Shown here piece after piece: positions 7,069 to 45,146 of a stretch of 64,000 nucleotides of DNA (the stretch's first letter is position 1; the number at the start of each line of letters is the position of its first letter). A program made the position numbers and the translations under genes. Source of the DNA: Akkermansiaceae bacterium (lineage in GTDB: Bacteria; Verrucomicrobiota; Verrucomicrobiia; Verrucomicrobiales; Akkermansiaceae). The notes beneath the pieces were generated by a model. It worked only from the letters and a program-made list of their open reading frames with translations. It was not told where the DNA came from and searched no databases. The DNA lies in the NCBI GenBank assembly GCA_019634595.1, contig JAHCBC010000001.1:1116001-1180000 (forward strand), given 5' to 3'.

Positions 7069-7096
7069 GGAGGCAAACGCAGGGAGGTGAGTGGAG

Positions 7097-7192
7097 AAAG
7101 GAAGGCAAGCCTCCGGATTGCCACCTAAGAACCAACACTTCAAGCCCCCCCATTCTTGATGTTGGCAATCCGGAGGCTTGCCCTCCTTTCCT
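7097..7192. repeat. family A palindromic repeat, copy 1 (long loop)
   Basis: Inverted repeat with left arm AAAGGAAGGCAAGCCTCCGG and right arm ending GGAGGCTTGCCCTCCTTTCC around a ~40-base centre. Eight further copies occur in the window, two of them bracketing the RAYT gene. It lies just downstream of the PSD1 gene and abuts an aquaporin gene fragment. Confidence 0.9.
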
Positions 7193-7277
7193 TCGCCGGC
7201 GGCGCCTACCTTTCCCAGGTGTGGCTGTTCTGGGTGGTGCCCATCCTCGGTGCCGTCATCGGCGCCATCCTCTATAT
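7192..7277 (+). pseudogene. aquaporin 3'-end fragment
   Basis: This stretch reads [20 protein letters not shown] and then AVIGAILY, nearly identical to the C-terminus of the intact aquaporin at 13067-13759. It has no start and no N-terminal domains. It begins exactly where the right arm of family A copy 1 ends, which points to movement or recombination together with the repeat. Confidence 0.85.
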
Positions 7278-7370
7278 CCCGACTTCGATCCACGGGGCAG
7301 GTTGACGGAATTCCGGGAACGCTTCTGGAAGATCCACCACAAGGAGCGGAGGAAACCCCAGGGGGAGTAG
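7275..7370 (+). pseudogene. unidentified coding remnant, C-terminal 31 residues
   Basis: After the aquaporin fragment the frame reads YPDFDPRGRLTEFRERFWK and continues IHHKERRKPQGE to a TAG at 7368-7370. The composition is protein-like, so it may be the tail of a lost gene fused to the aquaporin debris. The parent gene is not recognised. The stop overlaps the GTAG head of a family B hairpin. Confidence 0.35.
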
Positions 7371-7394
7371 CGAAGGTCGTGAGACCTTCGCTAC
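7367..7394. repeat. family B REP hairpin, single copy
   Basis: Perfect hairpin GTAGCGAAGGTC-GTGA-GACCTTCGCTAC sharing the GTAGCGAAG head of the longer family B elements at 33691 and 45041. The GTAG/CTAC ends are typical of REP sequences. Confidence 0.8.
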
Positions 7395-7452
7395 CCCTCA
7401 CCATATTCGATCTCGCCCGGAGTGGAATCCCCACCCATCCTCCCCGTGCCAG

Positions 7453-9440: not shown

Positions 9441-9641
9441 TAAGGAGGGAGGACACTCCTGTCCTCCGACGGCATTGGCAAGCCAGTGAAAATTCACCGC
9501 AACAGCCGTGGCCGCGAAGGTAGCAAAATGGATTCCTCAAGATTCGCGGTCAGCTTTCTTTATCCGGACAACCACACACTGAAAACTTCTCCTGCATTGT
9601 TCGCCAATGCCGCCGGAGGACAAGAGTGTCCTCCCTCCTTA
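9441..9641. repeat. family D element, copy 1 (about 200 bp)
   Basis: Ends are inverted: TAAGGAGGGAGGACACTCCT and its counterpart TGTCCTCCCTCCTTA. The second copy is at 39521-39725. The 100-base centre (GATTCGCGGTCAGCTT in this copy) is also related between the copies, so it is a repeated element rather than just a hairpin. Confidence 0.85.
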
Positions 9642-12091: not shown

Positions 12092-12187
12092 GAAAGGAAG
12101 GCAAGCCTCCGGATTGCCATCAACAAAAGCCACATCACGACTTTCCATTCCTGATGAGGCAATCCGGAGGCTTGCCCTCCTTTCCTT
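12092..12187. repeat. family A palindromic repeat, copy 2 (5' of RAYT)
   Basis: Arms GAAAGGAAGGCAAGCCTCCG and GGAGGCTTGCCCTCCTTTCC around a centre with CATCACGACTTTCCATTCC, which is nearly the same centre as in copy 6 (14437). It ends 22 bases before the transposase ATG. Confidence 0.92.
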
Positions 12188-12209
12188 CATCCCCTCCTAT
12201 CTTTCCCCA

Positions 12210-12863
12210 ATGCCCTCCTTCCAGTGGTCGGATCTGCGTTTTCTCAATGGCGAGGCCCCCATCGACAAGACGCGCCGCCATCTCCCGCACTGGCAGCAGA
12301 ACGGAAAGAGCTACTTCGTCACCTTCCGGTTGGCGGATTCCCTCCCCGTTTCGCTCCTCCGGCAATGGAGGCTGGATCGTGACCAATGGCTCGCGGAGCA
12401 CCCGCAACCCTGGTCCCCGGAAACGGAGGTGGAATACCACCGCACCTTCTCCGGTGCCATCGACCGCTGGCTGGACCAGGGCATGGGCTCCTGCCTGCTG
12501 CAGGACCCGGAGCACTCTGCCCGCGTCGCCGACGCCTTCCACCATTTCGACCGCGTGCGCTACACCCTCCACAGCTTCGTCGTGATGCCGAACCACGTCC
12601 ACGTCCTGCTATCCCTGGAGGAAAGCGGCGCACTTTCCGAGATCATCGCGACGTGGAAGCGCTTCTCCGCGACCGCCATCAACAAGGCCACCGGGCGGTC
12701 CGGGGCCTTCTGGATGGACGACTACTTCGACCGCATCATCCGGAACTGGGATCACTTCATCGCCGTCGCGCGGTATATCCGCAACAATCCCCGCAAGGCG
12801 AAGCTCCCGCCCGCCGCCAGCGTCCTCCACAGCGCCCCCTGGACCGACCGCCTGCTCTCCTGA
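12210..12863 (+). CDS. REP-associated tyrosine transposase (RAYT, Y1/IS200-like), 217 aa
   Basis: Single-strand DNA nuclease of the HUH/Y1 superfamily that is known to act on REP palindromes. Visible signatures: HWQQNGKSYFVTFRLADSLP near the start, the metal-binding HUH motif in VVMPNHVHVLLSLE (His129 and His131), and the catalytic Tyr189 in VARYIRNNPRKA. The ATG at 12210 gives the expected N-terminus; upstream in-frame codons lie in repeat DNA. It is framed by family A repeats, 22 bases before the start and immediately after the stop, exactly the context of a RAYT with its cognate REPs. No IS ends or second transposase are seen, so it is probably a single-copy, vertically kept RAYT. Confidence 0.93.
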   Translation: MPSFQWSDLRFLNGEAPIDKTRRHLPHWQQNGKSYFVTFRLADSLPVSLLRQWRLDRDQWLAEHPQPWSPETEVEYHRTFSGAIDRWLDQGMGSCLLQDPEHSARVADAFHHFDRVRYTLHSFVVMPNHVHVLLSLEESGALSEIIATWKRFSATAINKATGRSGAFWMDDYFDRIIRNWDHFIAVARYIRNNPRKAKLPPAASVLHSAPWTDRLLS

Positions 12864-12865
12864 AA

Positions 12866-12963
12866 GGAAAGGAAGGCAAGCCTCCGGATTGCCTGAAAAA
12901 GGATCAATCCCGAGGCATTTTCCATCTGATGTTGGCAATCCGGAGGCTTGCCTTCCTTTCTTT
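12866..12963. repeat. family A palindromic repeat, copy 3 (3' of RAYT)
   Basis: Begins at the RAYT stop codon and carries both arms around a centre with GGATCAATCCCGAGGCATTT. The same centre appears in reverse orientation in copies 4 and 5. Confidence 0.92.
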
Positions 12964-13066
12964 CCCCTCAACCCCGCATAATTAGCCTTGAATAATGCAC
13001 GATGACTTCCTAATGCACATGGAGCGTGAAGTGCCGGAGCCCGGCGCTTGGAACCCTGTGGCATCC

Positions 13067-13759
13067 ATGAAAAAGTATATTGCTGAAGCGATCGGGACAT
13101 TCTGGCTGGTATTCGGAGGCGCGGGGAGCGCGGTGCTGGCAGCCGGATGGCCGGAGCTGGGCATCGGATTCCTGGGAGTGGCGCTGGCATTCGGCCTCAC
13201 GGTGCTGACCATGGCCTATGCCATCGGCCACATCTCCGGCTGCCACCTGAACCCCGCCGTATCCGTGGGTCTGTTCGTCGGTGGCCGGTTTCCGGCAAAG
13301 GATCTGGTGCCCTACATCATCTCGCAGGTCATCGGTGGTATCGCAGGTGCGGGGTTGCTCTATCTCATCGCCAGCGGAAAGGCGGGCTTCGTGGCCGGCG
13401 GGTTCGCCTCGAACGGTTATGCGGATCTTTCCCCGGGCAAATACTCGCTGGTCGCCTGCTTCGCCGCGGAGGTCGCGCTGACGGCGGTGTTCCTGATCAT
13501 CATCCTGGGCTCCACGGACAAGAAAGCGCCCGCCGGACTGGCTCCCGTCGCCATCGGCCTCGGGCTGACGCTCATCCACCTCATTTCCATCCCGGTCACC
13601 AACTGCTCGGTGAATCCCGCCCGCAGCCTGGGCACCGCGGCCTTCGCCGGGGGCGCTTACCTTTCCCAAGTGTGGCTGTTCTGGGTGGCTCCCATCATCG
13701 GTGCCGTCATCGGTGCGATCCTCTACAAGGTCATCGCCCCGTCCGAGAACGGAAGGTGA
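13067..13759 (+). CDS. aqpZ: aquaporin Z-like water channel, 230 aa
   Basis: Six-helix inner-membrane channel for water. Both NPA loops are present: [13 protein letters not shown] (Asn62) and [10 protein letters not shown] (Asn183). The selectivity filter residues fit AqpZ rather than a glycerol facilitator: Phe42, His171, Thr179 and Arg186. The start at 13067 gives the usual [19 protein letters not shown]-terminus; an ATG at 12995 would add 24 unsupported residues. The gene is bracketed by family A copies 3 and 4. The last ~110 bases plus the following repeat are duplicated in tandem downstream, and a similar tail fragment lies at 7192-7277. Confidence 0.95.
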
Positions 13760-13764
13760 TCGGA

Positions 13765-13864
13765 GACAGGAAGGCAAGCCTCCGGATTGCCAACATCCGA
13801 TGAAAAATACCCCGGGGTTGATCCTTTTTTAAGGCAATCCGGAGGCTTGCCCTCCTTTCCTCCT
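13765..13864. repeat. family A palindromic repeat, copy 4
   Basis: Arms AGGAAGGCAAGCCTCCGGAT and GGAGGCTTGCCCTCCTTTCC. The centre contains CCCCGGGGTTGATCC. It lies between the aquaporin stop and the aquaporin tail fragment. Confidence 0.92.
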
Positions 13865-13978
13865 TCTCCGGGGGGACTATCTTTCCCAAGTCTGGCTGTT
13901 CCGGGTGCCCCCATCATCGGTGCCGTCATCGGCGCCATCCTCTACAAGGTCATCCGCCCGGCCGACGCCGGGAGGTGA
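13865..13978 (+). pseudogene. tandem duplicate of the aquaporin 3' end
   Basis: TATCTTTCCCAAGTCTGGCT, GTGCCGTCATCGGCGCCATC and CTCTACAAGGTCATC follow the end of aqpZ closely, up to a stop TGA at 13976-13978. It has small changes and a frameshift near its left end, and no start. Together with copy 5 it forms a ~214-base unit that repeats the preceding 13650-13864. Confidence 0.88.
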
Positions 13979-13983
13979 TCAGA

Positions 13984-14078
13984 GAAAGGAAGGCAAGCCT
14001 CCGGATTGCCAACATCCGATGGAAAATGCCCCGGGGTTGATCCTTTTTTGAGGCAATCCGGAGGCTTGCCCTCCTTTC
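13984..14078. repeat. family A palindromic repeat, copy 5
   Basis: Nearly identical to copy 4, including the CCCCGGGGTTGATCC centre, as expected for a tandem duplication that included the aquaporin tail. Confidence 0.92.
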
Positions 14079-14436: not shown

Positions 14437-14531
14437 AGACAGGAAGGCAAGCCTCCGGATTGCCAACAACAAAAGCCGCATCACGACTCTCCATTCCTGA
14501 TGAGGCAATCCGGAGGCTTGCCCTCCTTTCC
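14437..14531. repeat. family A palindromic repeat, copy 6
   Basis: Arms as in the other copies; centre AAAGCCGCATCACGACTCTC matches copy 2. It lies directly before the stop codon of ppk2 and could also act as that gene's 3' hairpin. Confidence 0.92.
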
Positions 14532-14532
14532 G

Positions 14533-15360
14533 TCATTCCCCCACCACGACGGTCTTCGGGTCCCAGGTGATCTTCGGATACTCCATGTTCAGGCCCTTCA
14601 GCGTGTTCACCATGATCTGTGCAACAACGAGGTCGCGGTACCATTTCCGGTCCGCCGGGATGACATACCATGGCGCGAGGTCGGTGGAGGTTTTTGAAAT
14701 GACCTCCTCATAGGCTTTCATGAAGTCGCTCCACAGGGCGCGGTCGGAAAGATCGTCGGGATTGAATTTCCAGTGCTTCGCCGGGTTCGCCAGCCGGGAC
14801 TCCAGCCGCTTCTTCTGCTCGTCCTTCGAGATGTGGAGGAACAGCTTCACGATGGTGGTGCCTTCCTCCGCCAGCATGCGCTCGAACTCTAGCACATGGC
14901 GCTGGCGGCGCTTCCAGACTTCATCCGGGAAAAGCTTCTTCACCCGCACGGCGATGATGTCCTCATAGTGGCTGCGGTTGAAGATGACCATCCCGCCGTT
15001 CCGCGGAACGTGCTGGTGGATGCGCCACAGGAAATCATGCGCCAGTTCCTCCTCCGCGGGCTTCTTGAACGCCTGTACCCGGATGCCCTGCGGGTCGATG
15101 CCGGCGAACACGTTCTTCACGCAGCCGTCCTTGCCGCCGGTGTCCATGGCCTGCACCACCACCAGCACACGCTGCTTGCTCTGGGCGTAGAGGACTTTCT
15201 GCAGTTCCCGCAGCTCCACCTTCAGCCTCTCCGCGATGGGCAGGAAGCTGTCTTTCGTGACGGACTCGAAGACCGTCTTCTCCGAGGTGTCGATCCTGGC
15301 GAGGTCCAGGGTGCTCCCCGGCTTCACATAGTATCGTTCAAGTGGACCCTTCACCGGCAT
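14533..15360 (-). CDS. ppk2: polyphosphate:nucleotide phosphotransferase, PPK2 family, 275 aa
   Basis: Uses polyphosphate to phosphorylate nucleoside mono- or diphosphates in the cytosol. The Walker A-like loop is in VVVQAMDTGGKDGCVKNVF and the second motif, FNRSHYEDIIAVRV, is the PPK2 lid/Walker B region. The N-terminus starts MPVKGPLERYYVKPGSTLDL at 15360; upstream in-frame codons add no homology. The gene is divergent from the Ppx/GppA gene with only ~128 bases between, which probably holds both promoters. PPK2 class (AMP or ADP as acceptor) cannot be fixed from the sequence alone. Confidence 0.92.
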   Translation of the reverse strand: MPVKGPLERYYVKPGSTLDLARIDTSEKTVFESVTKDSFLPIAERLKVELRELQKVLYAQSKQRVLVVVQAMDTGGKDGCVKNVFAGIDPQGIRVQAFKKPAEEELAHDFLWRIHQHVPRNGGMVIFNRSHYEDIIAVRVKKLFPDEVWKRRQRHVLEFERMLAEEGTTIVKLFLHISKDEQKKRLESRLANPAKHWKFNPDDLSDRALWSDFMKAYEEVISKTSTDLAPWYVIPADRKWYRDLVVAQIMVNTLKGLNMEYPKITWDPKTVVVGE

Positions 15361-15488
15361 GCCGCTGTTATCCTCCTGACAGCGACCCGTGACAAGCCGG
15401 AAGGGCCGCGAAATCCCATCCCCTTCCGTGAAACGTGCGTCACACATTGGGAGTTGTAAATGCGTGGTTCACGGGCAGTCTTAGGCCA

Positions 15489-17048
15489 ATGCCCGCCGCC
15501 CGGAAGTCCCTGCAACTGAAGCAAAATTCCGCCTCCCTCCATACCGCGCTCCATATCGGTGCCAGCTCCGTCTCCATGATGGTCGCGGAACGTGACGGAA
15601 AAGGCACATTGACCCCGGTCGATTTCCTGGAGCAGCCCGCCCCGCTGGCGAGCGACATTTTCCGTGACGGAAAGGTCAGCCTGACCACCACGGAGCGCAT
15701 CGTCTCCATCATCAAGGGCTACCAGAAGGCATTGGCGGAGCTGGGCTATGACCCGCACGACCTCACCCGCGCCGTGGCGACGAACATCCTGAGCGAGGCG
15801 ACGAACCATGACACGGTCATGAACCGCATCCGCATCGCCTGTGGCCTGCGGGTGAGCACCATCGACGACGGGGAGATGACCCGCCTCATCTACCTGAAGA
15901 CGCGCCGCCGGCTGAAGAACCTGCCCGCCATGGAGCAGGACACCACGCTGGTGGTCCACGTGGGTCCGGGGAACACCCGCGCCCTCCTGTTCCAGAACGG
16001 AAAGATCACCCGCTACACCAGCTACCGGCTGGGCACCCACCGCACCCGCGAGGCGCTGGAGGGTTCCCTCACGGACGGCCCCGCCCTCAACCGCGTGATC
16101 CGCGAGCATACGTCCGGGAACCTGGCGCAGATCCGCTTCGACTACTCGGACGTCACCATCGACGGCATCGTCGCCATCGGTTATGAGATCCAGTCCGTCG
16201 CCCCGTCCCTCATCAAGAAAGGGAGCGCCTCCCCGCTGAAGACGCTGCGCCAGTTCACCTCGGAGGCGGCGACGCTCTCGGACGCGGAGCTGGTGAAGCG
16301 GTTCCAGGTGGACTACCAGACGGCGGAGGGCCTGCTGCCCGCGCTGGAGATCAACCTCGCCATCGCGGAGGTGCTCAAGCAGGAGGAGATCCACATCCCG
16401 GACAGCGACTACGAACAGGGCCTGCTGAACGACCTGCTGGTCTCCCAGGAACTCACCGGAGCCTTCGCGGAGGAGGTGCTGCGCTCCGCCAACATCCTCG
16501 CGGAACGCTACCAGTCGGACATCGCCCATGGCGAACACGTGGGACGGCTCTGCACCCGTTTCTTCGATGCCACGGCGGACCTGCACCGCCTCACGCCGCA
16601 TGACGCGCTGCTGCTCCAGGTGGCCGCCATCCTCCATGAGGTGGGCACCTTCATCACCGCGCGCGCGCACCACAAGCACTCGGAATACATCATCCTCAAC
16701 TCGGAGATCTTCGGGCTGGACCGTCTGGACGTCACCATCGTCGCGCTGGTTTCCCGCTACCACCGCCACTCCGGCCCGAAGCTGGAACACCCCAGCTACG
16801 CCGCCCTGGGCACGGAGGATCGCATCCGCGTGTCAAAGCTGGCGGCCCTGCTCCGCGTGGCGGACGCACTGGAACGCACCCACGCCCAGCGCGTCGCGCA
16901 GATCGAGATCAAGCGTGAAGCAGGCAAGCTCCGCGTCCGCCTGCCCGGACTGGAGGACGCCGCCGTGGAACGCATCGCCATGGAGTCGAAGGCGGACCTC
17001 TTCGAGGAAGTCTTCGGCCTCACCGTCGTCATCGATGAGGATAACTGA
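15489..17048 (+). CDS. Ppx/GppA phosphatase with C-terminal HD domain, 519 aa
   Basis: Likely exopolyphosphatase and/or pppGpp phosphohydrolase. N-terminal ASKHA-fold domains: LHIGASSVSMMVAERDGKG in place of the usual DxGSNS start, the AVATNILSEATN segment, and VVHVGPGNTRALLF in the position of the DIGGGS motif. The C-terminal domain is HD-like (HGEHVGRLCTRFF; LLQVAAILHEVGTFI; HHKHSEYIILN), with a hydrophobic His/Asp array. The active-site loops are diverged from E. coli Ppx (no canonical GGGS), so activity is less certain than the fold. The start at 15489 has TTAGG upstream. It lies 94 bases before ppk1, same strand. Confidence 0.85.
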   Translation: MPAARKSLQLKQNSASLHTALHIGASSVSMMVAERDGKGTLTPVDFLEQPAPLASDIFRDGKVSLTTTERIVSIIKGYQKALAELGYDPHDLTRAVATNILSEATNHDTVMNRIRIACGLRVSTIDDGEMTRLIYLKTRRRLKNLPAMEQDTTLVVHVGPGNTRALLFQNGKITRYTSYRLGTHRTREALEGSLTDGPALNRVIREHTSGNLAQIRFDYSDVTIDGIVAIGYEIQSVAPSLIKKGSASPLKTLRQFTSEAATLSDAELVKRFQVDYQTAEGLLPALEINLAIAEVLKQEEIHIPDSDYEQGLLNDLLVSQELTGAFAEEVLRSANILAERYQSDIAHGEHVGRLCTRFFDATADLHRLTPHDALLLQVAAILHEVGTFITARAHHKHSEYIILNSEIFGLDRLDVTIVALVSRYHRHSGPKLEHPSYAALGTEDRIRVSKLAALLRVADALERTHAQRVAQIEIKREAGKLRVRLPGLEDAAVERIAMESKADLFEEVFGLTVVIDEDN

Positions 17049-17142
17049 CTCCCCTTTCTTCCACAATGGAGCGCAGCGACATGGAGCCACTGAAACCATC
17101 AACATCCGGCTCAAATCACCGATCACTTCCCACTTTTCTCCC

Positions 17143-19236
17143 ATGATCCCCTACCTCAACCGCGAACTTTCCTGGGTCGAATTCAACCAACGGGTGCTCA
17201 ACGAAGCCCTGCGCGATGACCTTCCGCTGCTGGAACGGCTGAAGTTCCTGGCGATCACCGCGTCGAACCTCGACGAGTTCTTCCAGGTCCGCATCGGCAG
17301 CCTCATGCTCATGCGCCGCAGCGGCCGGAAGACGCCGGACCTTTCCGGCCTCACCCCGGTGAAGAACCTGGCGCTGCTGCGCACCCGCATCCTCCGGATG
17401 TGCGAGGACCAGTACACCCTGCTCAACACCGTGCTGCTGCCCGCGCTGGAGAAGCACAAGATCCGCCTGCTTTCCTTCCGTGAGCTGAGCCTGACCCAGG
17501 CGGCGCAGGCATCCGCCATTTTCGAGGACGGCGTCTTTCCGCTGCTCACCCCGCTGGCCATCGATCCGGACGGCCCGCCGCTCCAGGTGCCCGGCCTCCA
17601 GATCGTGGTGGCCTGCCGCCTGCTCGACCCGGAGACCCAGGCCGTGCGCCACGCCGTGATCCCCATCCCGGAAAGCGTGGGCCGCCGCGTGCCCATCTCC
17701 ACGGATGGCGAGGGAGCGTCCTTCCTCTTCATCGAGGACCTGGTGGCCGCGCATGCGGACCAGCTTTTCCCTGGTGAGAATGTCACCGCCACCACCGTCT
17801 TCCGCGTCACCCGCAACGGCGACATGGCCGTGCAGGAGGAGGATGCGACGGACCTGGCAGGCGAGATGGAGGACGTGCTCACCGCCCGCCGCTTCGCGGA
17901 CACCGTGCGGCTGGAACTGCGTGAGGACGCCCCGCGCGACCTCGCCCGCATCATCCAGAAAGTCACCGGTGCCAGCCCGCAGGAAGTCTATCAGATGGAC
18001 GGCCCGCCCGGACTTTCCTCCTTCATGGACCTGGCGTTCCTCTCCGGCTACGACCACCTGCGCGACGCGGACTGGCCCGGCCAGCCCTCCCCCGCCATCA
18101 CACCCGGCTCGACCATGTTCGAGACCATCGCCTCCGGCGACCTGATGCTTTTCCATCCCTATGAATCGTTCGAGCCGGTGATGCGCCTCATCGAGGAAGC
18201 GGCGGAGGATCCGGATGTCATCGCCATCAAGCAGGTGCTCTACCGCACCGCGCGGCAGTCACGCATCATCGACGCGCTCATCAAGGCCGCGGAAAACGGC
18301 AAACACGTGACCGCGCTGGTGGAGCTGAAGGCGCGCTTCGACGAGGCCCGCAACCTCGACCGTGCGGATGAACTGCGCCGCGCGGGCGCACAGATCGTCT
18401 ATGGCGTGAAGGGCCTGAAGACGCACGCGAAGATCTGCCTGGTCATCCGCCGGGAGTCCGGCCGCCTGCGCCGCTACGTCCACCTCGGCACCGGCAACTA
18501 CAACGAGTCCACCTCGAAGCTCTACACCGACCTCTCCTACCTCACCTGCAAGCCGGACTACGGCAACGACGCCTCCCTCTTCTTCAACGCCGTCACCGGA
18601 CGGTCGAAGTTGCTGCGCTTCCAGCGTCTGGTCCCCGCCCCCACCGCGATGAAGCCGAAGCTGCTGGACCTCATCGCCAGCGAGGCGGACCGCGCCGGGC
18701 TGGGCCTGCCCGCGAAGATCACCGCGAAGGTGAACTCCCTCCAGGACCCCGACATCATCGCCGCGCTCTACAAGGCCTCCCAGGCCGGCGTCGAGGTGAA
18801 GCTCAACGTCCGCGGCATCTGCTGCCTGAAGCCGGGCGACCCGAAGCACTCGAAAAACATCGAGGTCATTTCCGTCATCGACCGCTACCTCGAACACGCG
18901 CGCCTCTTCCACTTCCACCAGGGCGGCGACTCCCAGGTCTACATCGCCTCCGCGGACTGGATGACCCGCAACCTGGAGAAGCGCGTGGAGCTGATGATCC
19001 CCATCGAGGCCGCGCCGCTGAAGCGCCGCCTCATCCGCATCCTGGACGCTTATTTCCAGGACAACGTCCAGGCCTCCCGCATCCTCCCCGACGGCACCTC
19101 CCAGCGCCTCGTCCGGGAAAAGGGCAAGAAAGCCTTCCGCGTGCAGGAGTTCTTCTACCAGCAGGCAAGACAGGCCGCCAAAGCCCGCGAGCACGAACGG
19201 GCGATGACCTTCGAGCCGCACGTGCCGGTGGAGTGA
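17143..19236 (+). CDS. ppk1: polyphosphate kinase PPK1, 697 aa
   Basis: Reversibly makes polyphosphate from ATP. The N-terminus IPYLNRELSWVEFNQRVL is the canonical PPK N domain; the head domain (TASNLDEFFQVRIGSLM) and two phospholipase D-like catalytic domains follow. The active-site His region is GLKTHAKICLVIRRESGRL and the second is YVHLGTGNYNESTSKLYTD. Length matches the family. The frame is open some 600 bases upstream as an overlap with the preceding gene, but the ATG at 17143 begins the conserved sequence. With the Ppx/GppA and PPK2 genes it forms a polyphosphate locus. Confidence 0.96.
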   Translation: MIPYLNRELSWVEFNQRVLNEALRDDLPLLERLKFLAITASNLDEFFQVRIGSLMLMRRSGRKTPDLSGLTPVKNLALLRTRILRMCEDQYTLLNTVLLPALEKHKIRLLSFRELSLTQAAQASAIFEDGVFPLLTPLAIDPDGPPLQVPGLQIVVACRLLDPETQAVRHAVIPIPESVGRRVPISTDGEGASFLFIEDLVAAHADQLFPGENVTATTVFRVTRNGDMAVQEEDATDLAGEMEDVLTARRFADTVRLELREDAPRDLARIIQKVTGASPQEVYQMDGPPGLSSFMDLAFLSGYDHLRDADWPGQPSPAITPGSTMFETIASGDLMLFHPYESFEPVMRLIEEAAEDPDVIAIKQVLYRTARQSRIIDALIKAAENGKHVTALVELKARFDEARNLDRADELRRAGAQIVYGVKGLKTHAKICLVIRRESGRLRRYVHLGTGNYNESTSKLYTDLSYLTCKPDYGNDASLFFNAVTGRSKLLRFQRLVPAPTAMKPKLLDLIASEADRAGLGLPAKITAKVNSLQDPDIIAALYKASQAGVEVKLNVRGICCLKPGDPKHSKNIEVISVIDRYLEHARLFHFHQGGDSQVYIASADWMTRNLEKRVELMIPIEAAPLKRRLIRILDAYFQDNVQASRILPDGTSQRLVREKGKKAFRVQEFFYQQARQAAKAREHERAMTFEPHVPVE

Positions 19237-19276: not shown

Positions 19277-19334
19277 ACCCCCGTCGGCGGAGCCGGCGGG
19301 AAAGGAGGCTTTCTCCGAAAGGGCCGGGGTAGAT
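19277..19334. repeat. family G repeat arm, copy 1
   Basis: CACCCCCGTCGGCGGAGCCG through GGCTTTCTCCGAAAGGGCC is the same arm as in the long hairpin at 29742-29885. The complementary arm is absent here. Confidence 0.75.
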
Positions 19335-19967: not shown

Positions 19968-20029
19968 GACAGGAGGGCAAGCCTCCGGATTGCCTCAGAT
20001 GACAATCCGGAGGCTTGTCTTCCTTTCCC
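19968..20029. repeat. family A palindromic repeat, copy 7 (short loop)
   Basis: Arms GACAGGAGGGCAAGCCTCCG and AATCCGGAGGCTTGTCTTCC with a short centre. It is located just after the accA stop and could act as its transcription stop hairpin. Confidence 0.88.
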
Positions 20030-23848: not shown

Positions 23849-23908
23849 GGAAAGGAAGACAATCCTCCGGATTGTCATCTGAGGCCATCGGGAGGATTGC
23901 CCTCCTGC
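23849..23908. repeat. family A repeat, copy 8 (diverged short form)
   Basis: GGAAAGGAAGACAATCCTCC and GGGAGGATTGCCCTCCTGCC retain the family A pattern with several changes. It lies between the divergent membrane protein gene and fbaA. Confidence 0.75.
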
Positions 23909-24995: not shown

Positions 24996-25040
24996 TCCCA
25001 CGGAGCGCGGACTTCAGTCCGCATCTTCCATTCATCTGTG

Positions 25041-25075
25041 AAAAGCGGAGTCCTCACGGGCTCCGCTTTTTCTTT
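25041..25075 (+). terminator. Rho-independent terminator after fbaA
   Basis: AAAAGCGGAG-TCCTCACGGG-CTCCGCTTTT followed by more T. A second, nearly identical copy lies at 25965-25996 after the toxin gene. Confidence 0.88.
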
Positions 25076-25947: not shown

Positions 25948-25964
25948 TCGACCATCCATCTGTG

Positions 25965-25996
25965 AAAAGCGGAGTCCTCACTGGCTCCGCTTTTTT
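25965..25996 (+). terminator. Rho-independent terminator after the toxin gene (duplicate)
   Basis: AAAAGCGGAG-TCCTCACTGG-CTCCGCTTTTTT with CATCCATCTGTG just upstream, nearly identical to the fbaA terminator and its leader at 25028-25075. Confidence 0.9.
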
Positions 25997-27993: not shown

Positions 27994-28060
27994 GCGAAAG
28001 GAAGGCAAGCCTCCGGATTGCCTCCCCAAATGACAATCCGCAGGCTTGTCTTCCTTTCCT
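27994..28060. repeat. family A repeat, copy 9 (short loop)
   Basis: GAAAGGAAGGCAAGCCTCCG and ATCCGCAGGCTTGTCTTCCT, short centre as in copy 7, between the VC0807-like gene and phhB. Confidence 0.85.
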
Positions 28061-29741: not shown

Positions 29742-29885
29742 TCTCCCCCCGTCGGCGGAGCCGATGGGAAAGGAAGCGCTTTCTCCGAAAGGGCCGGGGG
29801 GGACGGCACCCTGTCATCGAAGACCTAATGACCGGAGGCACGTCCCCCCCGGCCCTTTCGGAGAAAGGTCTTTCCTTTCCGCGCG
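29742..29885. repeat. family G long inverted repeat
   Basis: Left arm GGAAAGGAAGCGCTTTCTCC to GAAAGGGCCGGGGGGGA and right arm TCCCCCCGGCCCTTTCGGAG to AAAGGTCTTTCCTTTCC form a stem of about 37 bp with few mismatches. The left arm alone recurs at 19277-19334. Confidence 0.85.
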
Positions 29886-39520: not shown

Positions 39521-39725
39521 TAAGGAGGGTGGACACTCCTGTCCACCGTCGGCATTGGCAAATCAGGAAAGATTCACCGCCAAGACGCCAAGGGCGCAAA
39601 GGGAAGAAATGAATCCCTTTTAGATTTGCGGTCAGCTTCGTTTTTCACTGATAACTTATAACCGATAACTTCTTCCTCTTTATTCGCCAATGCCGCCGGA
39701 GGACAGGAGTGTCCTCCCTCCTTAC
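39521..39725. repeat. family D element, copy 2 (about 205 bp)
   Basis: TAAGGAGGGTGGACACTCCT and TGTCCTCCCTCCTTAC ends plus related centre (CAAGACGCCAAGGGCGCAAA; GATTTGCGGTCAGCTT). Copy 1 lies at 9441-9641. Confidence 0.85.
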
Positions 39726-45040: not shown

Positions 45041-45146
45041 GTAGCGAAGCTCGTGAGAGCTTCGGCAGGGTGGATTCACCACCTGCCAACCGGCTCCGGT
45101 TCCCGCATGGACTCCCCCCAACCGGAAGTCTCACGACTTCCGCTAC
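45041..45146. repeat. family B REPIN, full copy
   Basis: GTAGCGAAGCTCGTGAGAGC at the left and AAGTCTCACGACTTCCGCTAC at the right. The centre (TGGATTCACCACCTGCC; CCGGCTCCGGTTCC) is the reverse complement of the centre at 33691-33796. Confidence 0.9.

Follow-up and report, generated by a model that had tools for sequence, protein, structure and literature searches.

A REP is defined as a short, hairpin-forming palindrome with the 5' tetranucleotide GT[AG]G (PMC3686654), and the copy number of REPs is high, usually more than 100 per genome (PMC2817692, PMC3686654). In the REPtrons of Pseudomonas, Stenotrophomonas and E. coli, a HUH/Y1 nuclease (RAYT or TnpAREP), present in one copy per repeat type, is accompanied by REPINs, inverted hairpin doublets with GT[AG]G heads that lie on both sides of the gene and recur as hundreds of dispersed, extragenic copies. 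Beside the RAYT genes of Pseudomonas fluorescens SBW25 there are also REPIN clusters and tandem arrays of an element plus its flank (PMC3116915). In published work on how a RAYT chooses its repeats, the contacts with the GTAG guide are described as poorly conserved between groups, and cleavage has been re-directed in only one system. In the E. coli complex (4ER8) the guide-contact region includes W94, Q95, E100, H101, and R104 (PMC6006769).

Here we describe a locus of this kind in a 64,000-nucleotide stretch (the window; G000:C1:1116001-1180000) of a 5.09-Mb verrucomicrobial genome assembled in nine contigs. We hold it probable, at roughly 0.8, that positions 12092-12960 constitute a REPtron, in which an intact, single-copy RAYT gene lies between two REPIN-like elements of its partner family (family A), and that the pair operates by the mechanism proposed below. 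RAYT-repeat pairs are a known kind of system, from which this one departs in three respects: the head reads GGA[AG], the repeat family is small (32 arms), and the repeats are tightly clustered, with about half of the family A elements no more than 16 kb from the gene.

The gene (12210..12863, + strand) is an intact open reading frame for a protein of 217 amino acids, and its translation bears out the HUH/Y1 signature reported in a first-pass annotation of this DNA, with PNHVH at residues 127-131 and Tyr189 within RYIRNNPRK. The residues H129, H131, and Y189 are invariant in an alignment of 47 homologues. The protein is matched by Pfam PF01797 (Y1_Tnp; E 9e-10) and by NCBIfam NF047646 (REP_Tyr_transpos; E 3e-21), in the latter case with 75.7 bits against a curated cut-off of 80, so that it falls below threshold; the shortfall of about 4 bits is a near miss of a naming threshold and not of a biological feature. 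A phmmer search of the PDB with the lone protein gave no match, and the top solved relative of a profile built from the 47 homologues was E. coli TnpAREP (4ER8, E 1.4e-7). The same structure ranked first (E 1.9e-6) when an AlphaFold2 model of the protein (pLDDT 90.7) was compared with the PDB by Foldseek. As judged by its motifs, profile matches, and modelled fold, the product is a predicted RAYT-type HUH nuclease. By its motifs the protein can be likened to TnpAREP subclass 2.7, whose members have NHVH, YI[LR][NQ]NP, a length of about 213 residues, a long N-terminus, D at the position of E100, and sometimes R at that of H101 (PMC6006769); the likeness is one of motifs only. That subclass was described with GT[AG]G-headed REPs (PMC6006769), whereas family A has GGA[AG]. 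The residues of its putative guide pocket are W168, M169, D174, R175, and R178, so that it differs from the E. coli protein in having M for Q95, D for E100, and R for H101, and agrees with it at R104.

The predicted HUH/Y1 fold is common to IS608 and ISDra2, as would be expected if the gene were an insertion sequence of the IS200/IS605 type with family A as its ends. We give this explanation very little credence: the gene is present in a single copy with no near-identical copy in its own genome, where the closest paralogue is about 39%-43% identical; its tyrosine motif is YIRNNP and not Y---Q (PMC6006769); and no tnpB was found among the scanned neighboring genes. A second comparison is with TIRtrons and their TIRYTs (PMC3733652), which also combine a RAYT-like gene with inverted-repeat flanks lacking a GTAG tag. 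Long sequences that for the most part have no relation to hairpin REPs, TIRs often share GGGGWSAS (PMC3733652), whereas each flank of the window gene is a doublet built from tagged 19-nt hairpins, of which the genome has further copies at other sites.

With up to three mismatches allowed, the window has 18 matches to the 19-nt arm of family A, GGCAATCCGGAGGCTTGCC, as compared with 0.03 expected from shuffled sequence. These arms pair up as nine inverted elements spread across 21 kb, confirming the nine copies listed previously, and two of the elements abut the RAYT gene. Six elements are of a long-loop form (a loop of 39-41 nt and 77-80 nt between outer arm ends): A1 (7096..7190), A2 (12092..12184), A3 (12867..12960), A4 (13765..13859), A5 (13984..14078), and A6 (14438..14530). 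The other three, A7 (19968..20027), A8 (23850..23908), and A9 (27996..28058), are of a short-loop form (44-47 nt between outer arm ends), so that both of the forms reported in the annotation are present. The annotation was also right that the gene is framed on both sides, but it misplaced the upstream element: A2 ends some 25 nt short of the ATG rather than starting 22 nt before it, and A3 begins 4 nt past the stop codon. The loop of A3 is inverted in orientation relative to those of A4 and A5.

In each arm a GGA[AG] head precedes a hairpin of 19 nt that comprises a GGCAA/TTGCC stem, a G.A mismatch, a CC/GG segment, and the loop TCC, and as single-stranded DNA one such hairpin has a predicted energy of -5.9 kcal/mol. 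Short-loop elements usually join a standard arm to a variant arm, GACAA...TTGTC (as in the second arm of A7), in which one stem pair is changed from G-C to A-T with compensation; the arms of A8 are degenerate, with three mismatches each. A search of the 5.09-Mb genome with a pattern for head and arm gave 32 arms in about 17 elements, and the reversed pattern, used as a control in the same search, gave zero matches. Across the 32 arms this stem pair is G-C in 25, A-T in six, and broken in one, which indicates that pairing is kept and not sequence alone. The inverted two-arm arrangement, a REPIN trait, is found in all nine elements of the window and in most of those outside it. The heads are GGAA in 20 arms (as in one arm of A2) and GGAG in 12 (as in the other), and in none of the 32 is the head GT[AG]G. 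Thus, the label REP, as applied in the annotation, does not hold in the strict sense, a point overlooked there: the 19-nt hairpin is present, the GT[AG]G head is missing throughout, and 32 arms fall short of the copy number of more than 100.

Could the hairpins be kept mainly as RNA elements, such as terminators or mRNA stabilizers at gene ends, the association with the RAYT being historical? Of the nine copies that the window contains, six lie just past a stop codon or in the interval between two convergent genes, and complete elements fold very stably (A2 as one long hairpin of -33.2 kcal/mol, z -10.1), both of which fit such a role. Yet the GGA[AG] head is not part of the hairpin arm and has nevertheless been retained in every one of the 32 arms, and copy number and location follow the RAYT. 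We therefore think it improbable as the main explanation, while noting that an RNA role and a partnership with the RAYT are not mutually exclusive.

The partnership is suggested in part by where family A is found. The nine elements in the window do not represent a background density, the whole genome having only about 17 by the pattern search. Even when the pair flanking the RAYT gene was left out, seven of the remaining 15 elements were located within 16 kb of the gene, as compared with 0.09 expected (p ~2e-12), and counting the tandem pair A4/A5 once gave a p value of 2e-10. Meanwhile, family A was absent from 58 relatives, 36 of them of the same genus, in which we found only isolated chance matches with two mismatches and no pairs. 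A RAYT homologue was present in 55 of the 59 genomes searched (including the host's own), and these homologues in the relatives were mostly flanked by hairpins of their own that differ from family A. The annotation had predicted that genomes without this particular RAYT would lack the family, and the result agrees with that prediction, albeit weakly, as the RAYT of the nearest relative is only about 60% identical to that of the window. Taken together, flanking on both sides, clustering, absence from the 58 relatives, and the fit between head and pocket set out below indicate that family A is very probably the REPIN-like partner of the window RAYT, as the annotation had proposed.

A similar clustering was seen in G004, a sister species whose genome is a single contig, where all 15 arms of the RAYT's own repeat lie within 13 kb of the RAYT gene. 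Three tandem REPIN units of 188 bp are located about 1.5 kb from that gene (L146:13711-14263), and a fourth copy lies another 10 kb off, a local pattern that is the same as that of family A. Also close to the gene (L146:8652-10661) are approximately 30 tandem units of roughly 66 bp. For 73 other RAYT repeats, the first 300 bp had a density of 58.6 per 10 kb, and at distances above 4 kb the density had dropped to about 0.1. This distance-decay analysis excludes family A and the G004 family, which were tested separately for clustering: the finder, which called hairpins with 6-bp stems, missed both because their stems contain a mismatch or bulge. We considered local clustering as a rule for the whole clade and rejected it, as dispersed families occur in the same genome and in G041. 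In the host genome, the GGAG-headed family of another RAYT comprises 89 dispersed arms, and the GTAG families of two other RAYTs (37 and 25 matches) are mostly dispersed; in G041, a GGAG-headed family with 65 matches is likewise dispersed. It is the small families, in the two cases of family A and that of G004, that appear to be home-bound.

The annotation had described the system as active or recently active, and the arms by themselves invite that reading, all twelve arms of the six long-loop elements being identical. We have dropped it, because the loops of sister copies have diverged by 7%-15% overall (3/39 for A2/A6, 3/41 for A4/A5, 4/40 for A3/A5 in inverted alignment, and 6/40 for A3/A4) and copied gene tails by 9%-14%. 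By simple arithmetic, at a divergence of 7.5% the chance of finding no change in 76 arm sites (A2/A6 and A4/A5) is about 0.003. The arms have thus been maintained rather than being young, whether by selection, by conversion, or by preferential copying of intact arms, and their identity does not date the last move.

The tails derive from an aqpZ-like aquaporin gene of the MIP family (12995..13759, + strand), which is directly followed by A4. The last 119 bp of this gene has been copied twice, each time beside a family A element, and in both copies the match to the gene starts at its base 13641. One copy (13862..13978, + strand) lies between A4 and A5 inside a 219-bp tandem duplication, the second unit of which is aquaporin tail plus element and includes A5; the other (7190..7274, + strand; 91% identical) directly follows A1. 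A genome search revealed no further good copy of the tail. The dispersed tail may have been carried by imprecise cutting by the RAYT or by recombination.

Immediately after that second tail copy, positions 7275-7396 hold the degraded 3' end (74%) of a different, GTAG-type Y1 gene. Its source is located 1.05 Mb away at G000:C1:71.4-72.0k, to which 7275-7371 is a 74% match. The degraded copy is directly followed by a GTAG double-foot repeat and is a second gene tail travelling beside a repeat.

The duplications bear on the possibility that the cluster grew by local duplication of the RecA or replication-slippage type, together with gene conversion between palindromes, and that the RAYT merely sits inside it and now moves nothing. 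A4/A5 is plainly a tandem duplication that includes gene DNA, the same tail is found after A1, identical arms with diverged loops are what conversion between palindromes would produce, and tandem arrays of a REPIN plus its flank have a precedent in SBW25 (PMC3116915). Local duplication without the RAYT could therefore have generated the clustering. Duplication of flanks does not, however, account for A2 and A6, which have arms and loop in common (36/39 in the loop) and outer flanks that are unrelated, or for the A4-type loop, which is found again at C1:834k, a distance of 294 kb, and in inverted orientation in A3. One loop type is thus found at unlinked sites and in both orientations, an observation that bears on mobilization of the REPIN as a unit. 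Nor does local duplication explain the fit of the family A heads to the pocket of the RAYT or the dispersal of the other repeat families in the same genome. We consider it unlikely, though deserving of serious weight. In a search of the relatives for empty sites, their aquaporin genes proved to be no more than 73% identical, which is too distant for such a comparison.

An independent link between family A and the window RAYT comes from the agreement of the head with the pocket residues. Plain k-mer enrichment in the flanks of RAYT genes pooled several head classes and so produced a mixed signal; it was replaced by automated calling of heads, for which we took the flanks of 193 distinct RAYT homologues and the hairpins that recur in them. 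This yielded GGA[AG] in 80 cases and GT[AG]G in 37, with 76 uncalled (117/193 callable). The segment aligned to W94-R104 of the E. coli protein separates the head classes. Homologues with H at the position equivalent to 101 had GT[AG]G heads in 28 of 28 cases, whereas those with R or T had GGA heads in 80 and GT heads in nine. Among the GGA heads, Q at the position equivalent to 95 went with GGAG in 60 of 61, and other residues went with GGAA in 12, GGAG in five, and ties in two (GGAA in 12/17 untied; Fisher 2e-9).

Since these counts are not independent, models of dependent and independent evolution were fitted for every usable column on a careful IQ-TREE tree from which the W94-R104 segment had been left out. 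For head class (T versus G at base 2), the top-ranked of 152 columns was position 175 (H101; LR 48, Bonferroni 1e-7), and for base 4 (G versus A) the top-ranked of 138 was position 169 (Q95; LR 25.4, Bonferroni 0.006); the p values are asymptotic, and the two positions had been noticed in a table before the scan. A quick tree agreed with the careful one. Strictly independent pairs on the tree numbered four for base 4 and nine for head class, with none in the wrong direction, and are not significant alone. Exceptions to the pattern are M with GGAG in L043, L045, and L089 and R with GT heads in eight cases. Position 98 was also entertained as a determinant; we do not claim Y98, as its association is weaker than that of H101 and the E. 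coli protein has F98 with GTAG. The four RAYTs nearest to that of the window have Q and GGAG, whereas the window RAYT has M with mostly GGAA (and R at the 101 equivalent).

On balance, we lean toward a residue code carried by the strand and turn that follow W94, in which position 101 (H versus R or T, with help from 98 and 99) would set base 2 of the head (T versus G) and position 95 (Q versus M, A, H, or R) would set base 4 (G versus A). On this same, somewhat guarded footing, a large clade rich in Verrucomicrobiota would use GGA[AG] hairpins that lie outside the GT[AG]G definition, and the window RAYT would recently have switched both residue 95 and base 4.

Returning to the locus as a REPtron, we infer from these sequence relations that the RAYT binds, cuts, and moves family A and has driven its local spread. 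The enzyme would bind a single arm in single-stranded form, such as on the lagging-strand template, and the GGA[AG] head would be seated as guide in a pocket to which M169 and R175 belong. Under the published model of the guide, in which bases 3-4 pair with the dinucleotide that is cut, GGAG heads would yield CT and GGAA heads TT. Y189 would then cut beside the hairpin, and the element, sometimes with adjoining DNA, would be joined elsewhere, mostly nearby.

The link between residue and head is the part worth following up. If positions 95 and 101 set the guide, then one-residue swaps should re-target the enzyme, and the repeats of uncharacterized genomes should be predictable from RAYT sequence; REP surveys limited to GT[AG]G heads would be missing a common class of repeat. 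The RAYT and REP literature that we examined does not mention GGA[AG] heads, and we regard their novelty as provisional. Small families clustered near their RAYT may, in turn, show how a REP family looks early in its formation.

Finally, we note other repeats and genes in the window. Two additional families, GGAGGACACTCCTGTCCTCC (89 arms genome-wide) and GTAGCGGAAGTCGTGAGACTTCCG (37 matches), are represented at 9448-9634, 39528-39717, and 45123-45146; each matches the flanks of another Y1 gene, and several RAYT-repeat pairs therefore coexist in this genome. A 44-nt repeat (25028-25071 and 25952-25995, 95% identity) consists of a GC-rich hairpin and a T run (AAAAGCGGAGTCC..GGGCTCCGCTTTTT) and is terminator-like. 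A 54-nt repeat (19278-19329 and 29746-29799, 91% identity; CCCCCGTCGGCGGAGCCGGCGGGAAAGGAGGC...) belongs neither to family A nor to the other named repeats. Next to the RAYT cluster, at 14536-19236, genes for PPK2 (- strand), a Ppx/GppA-like phosphatase, and PPK1 (+ strand) lie side by side.
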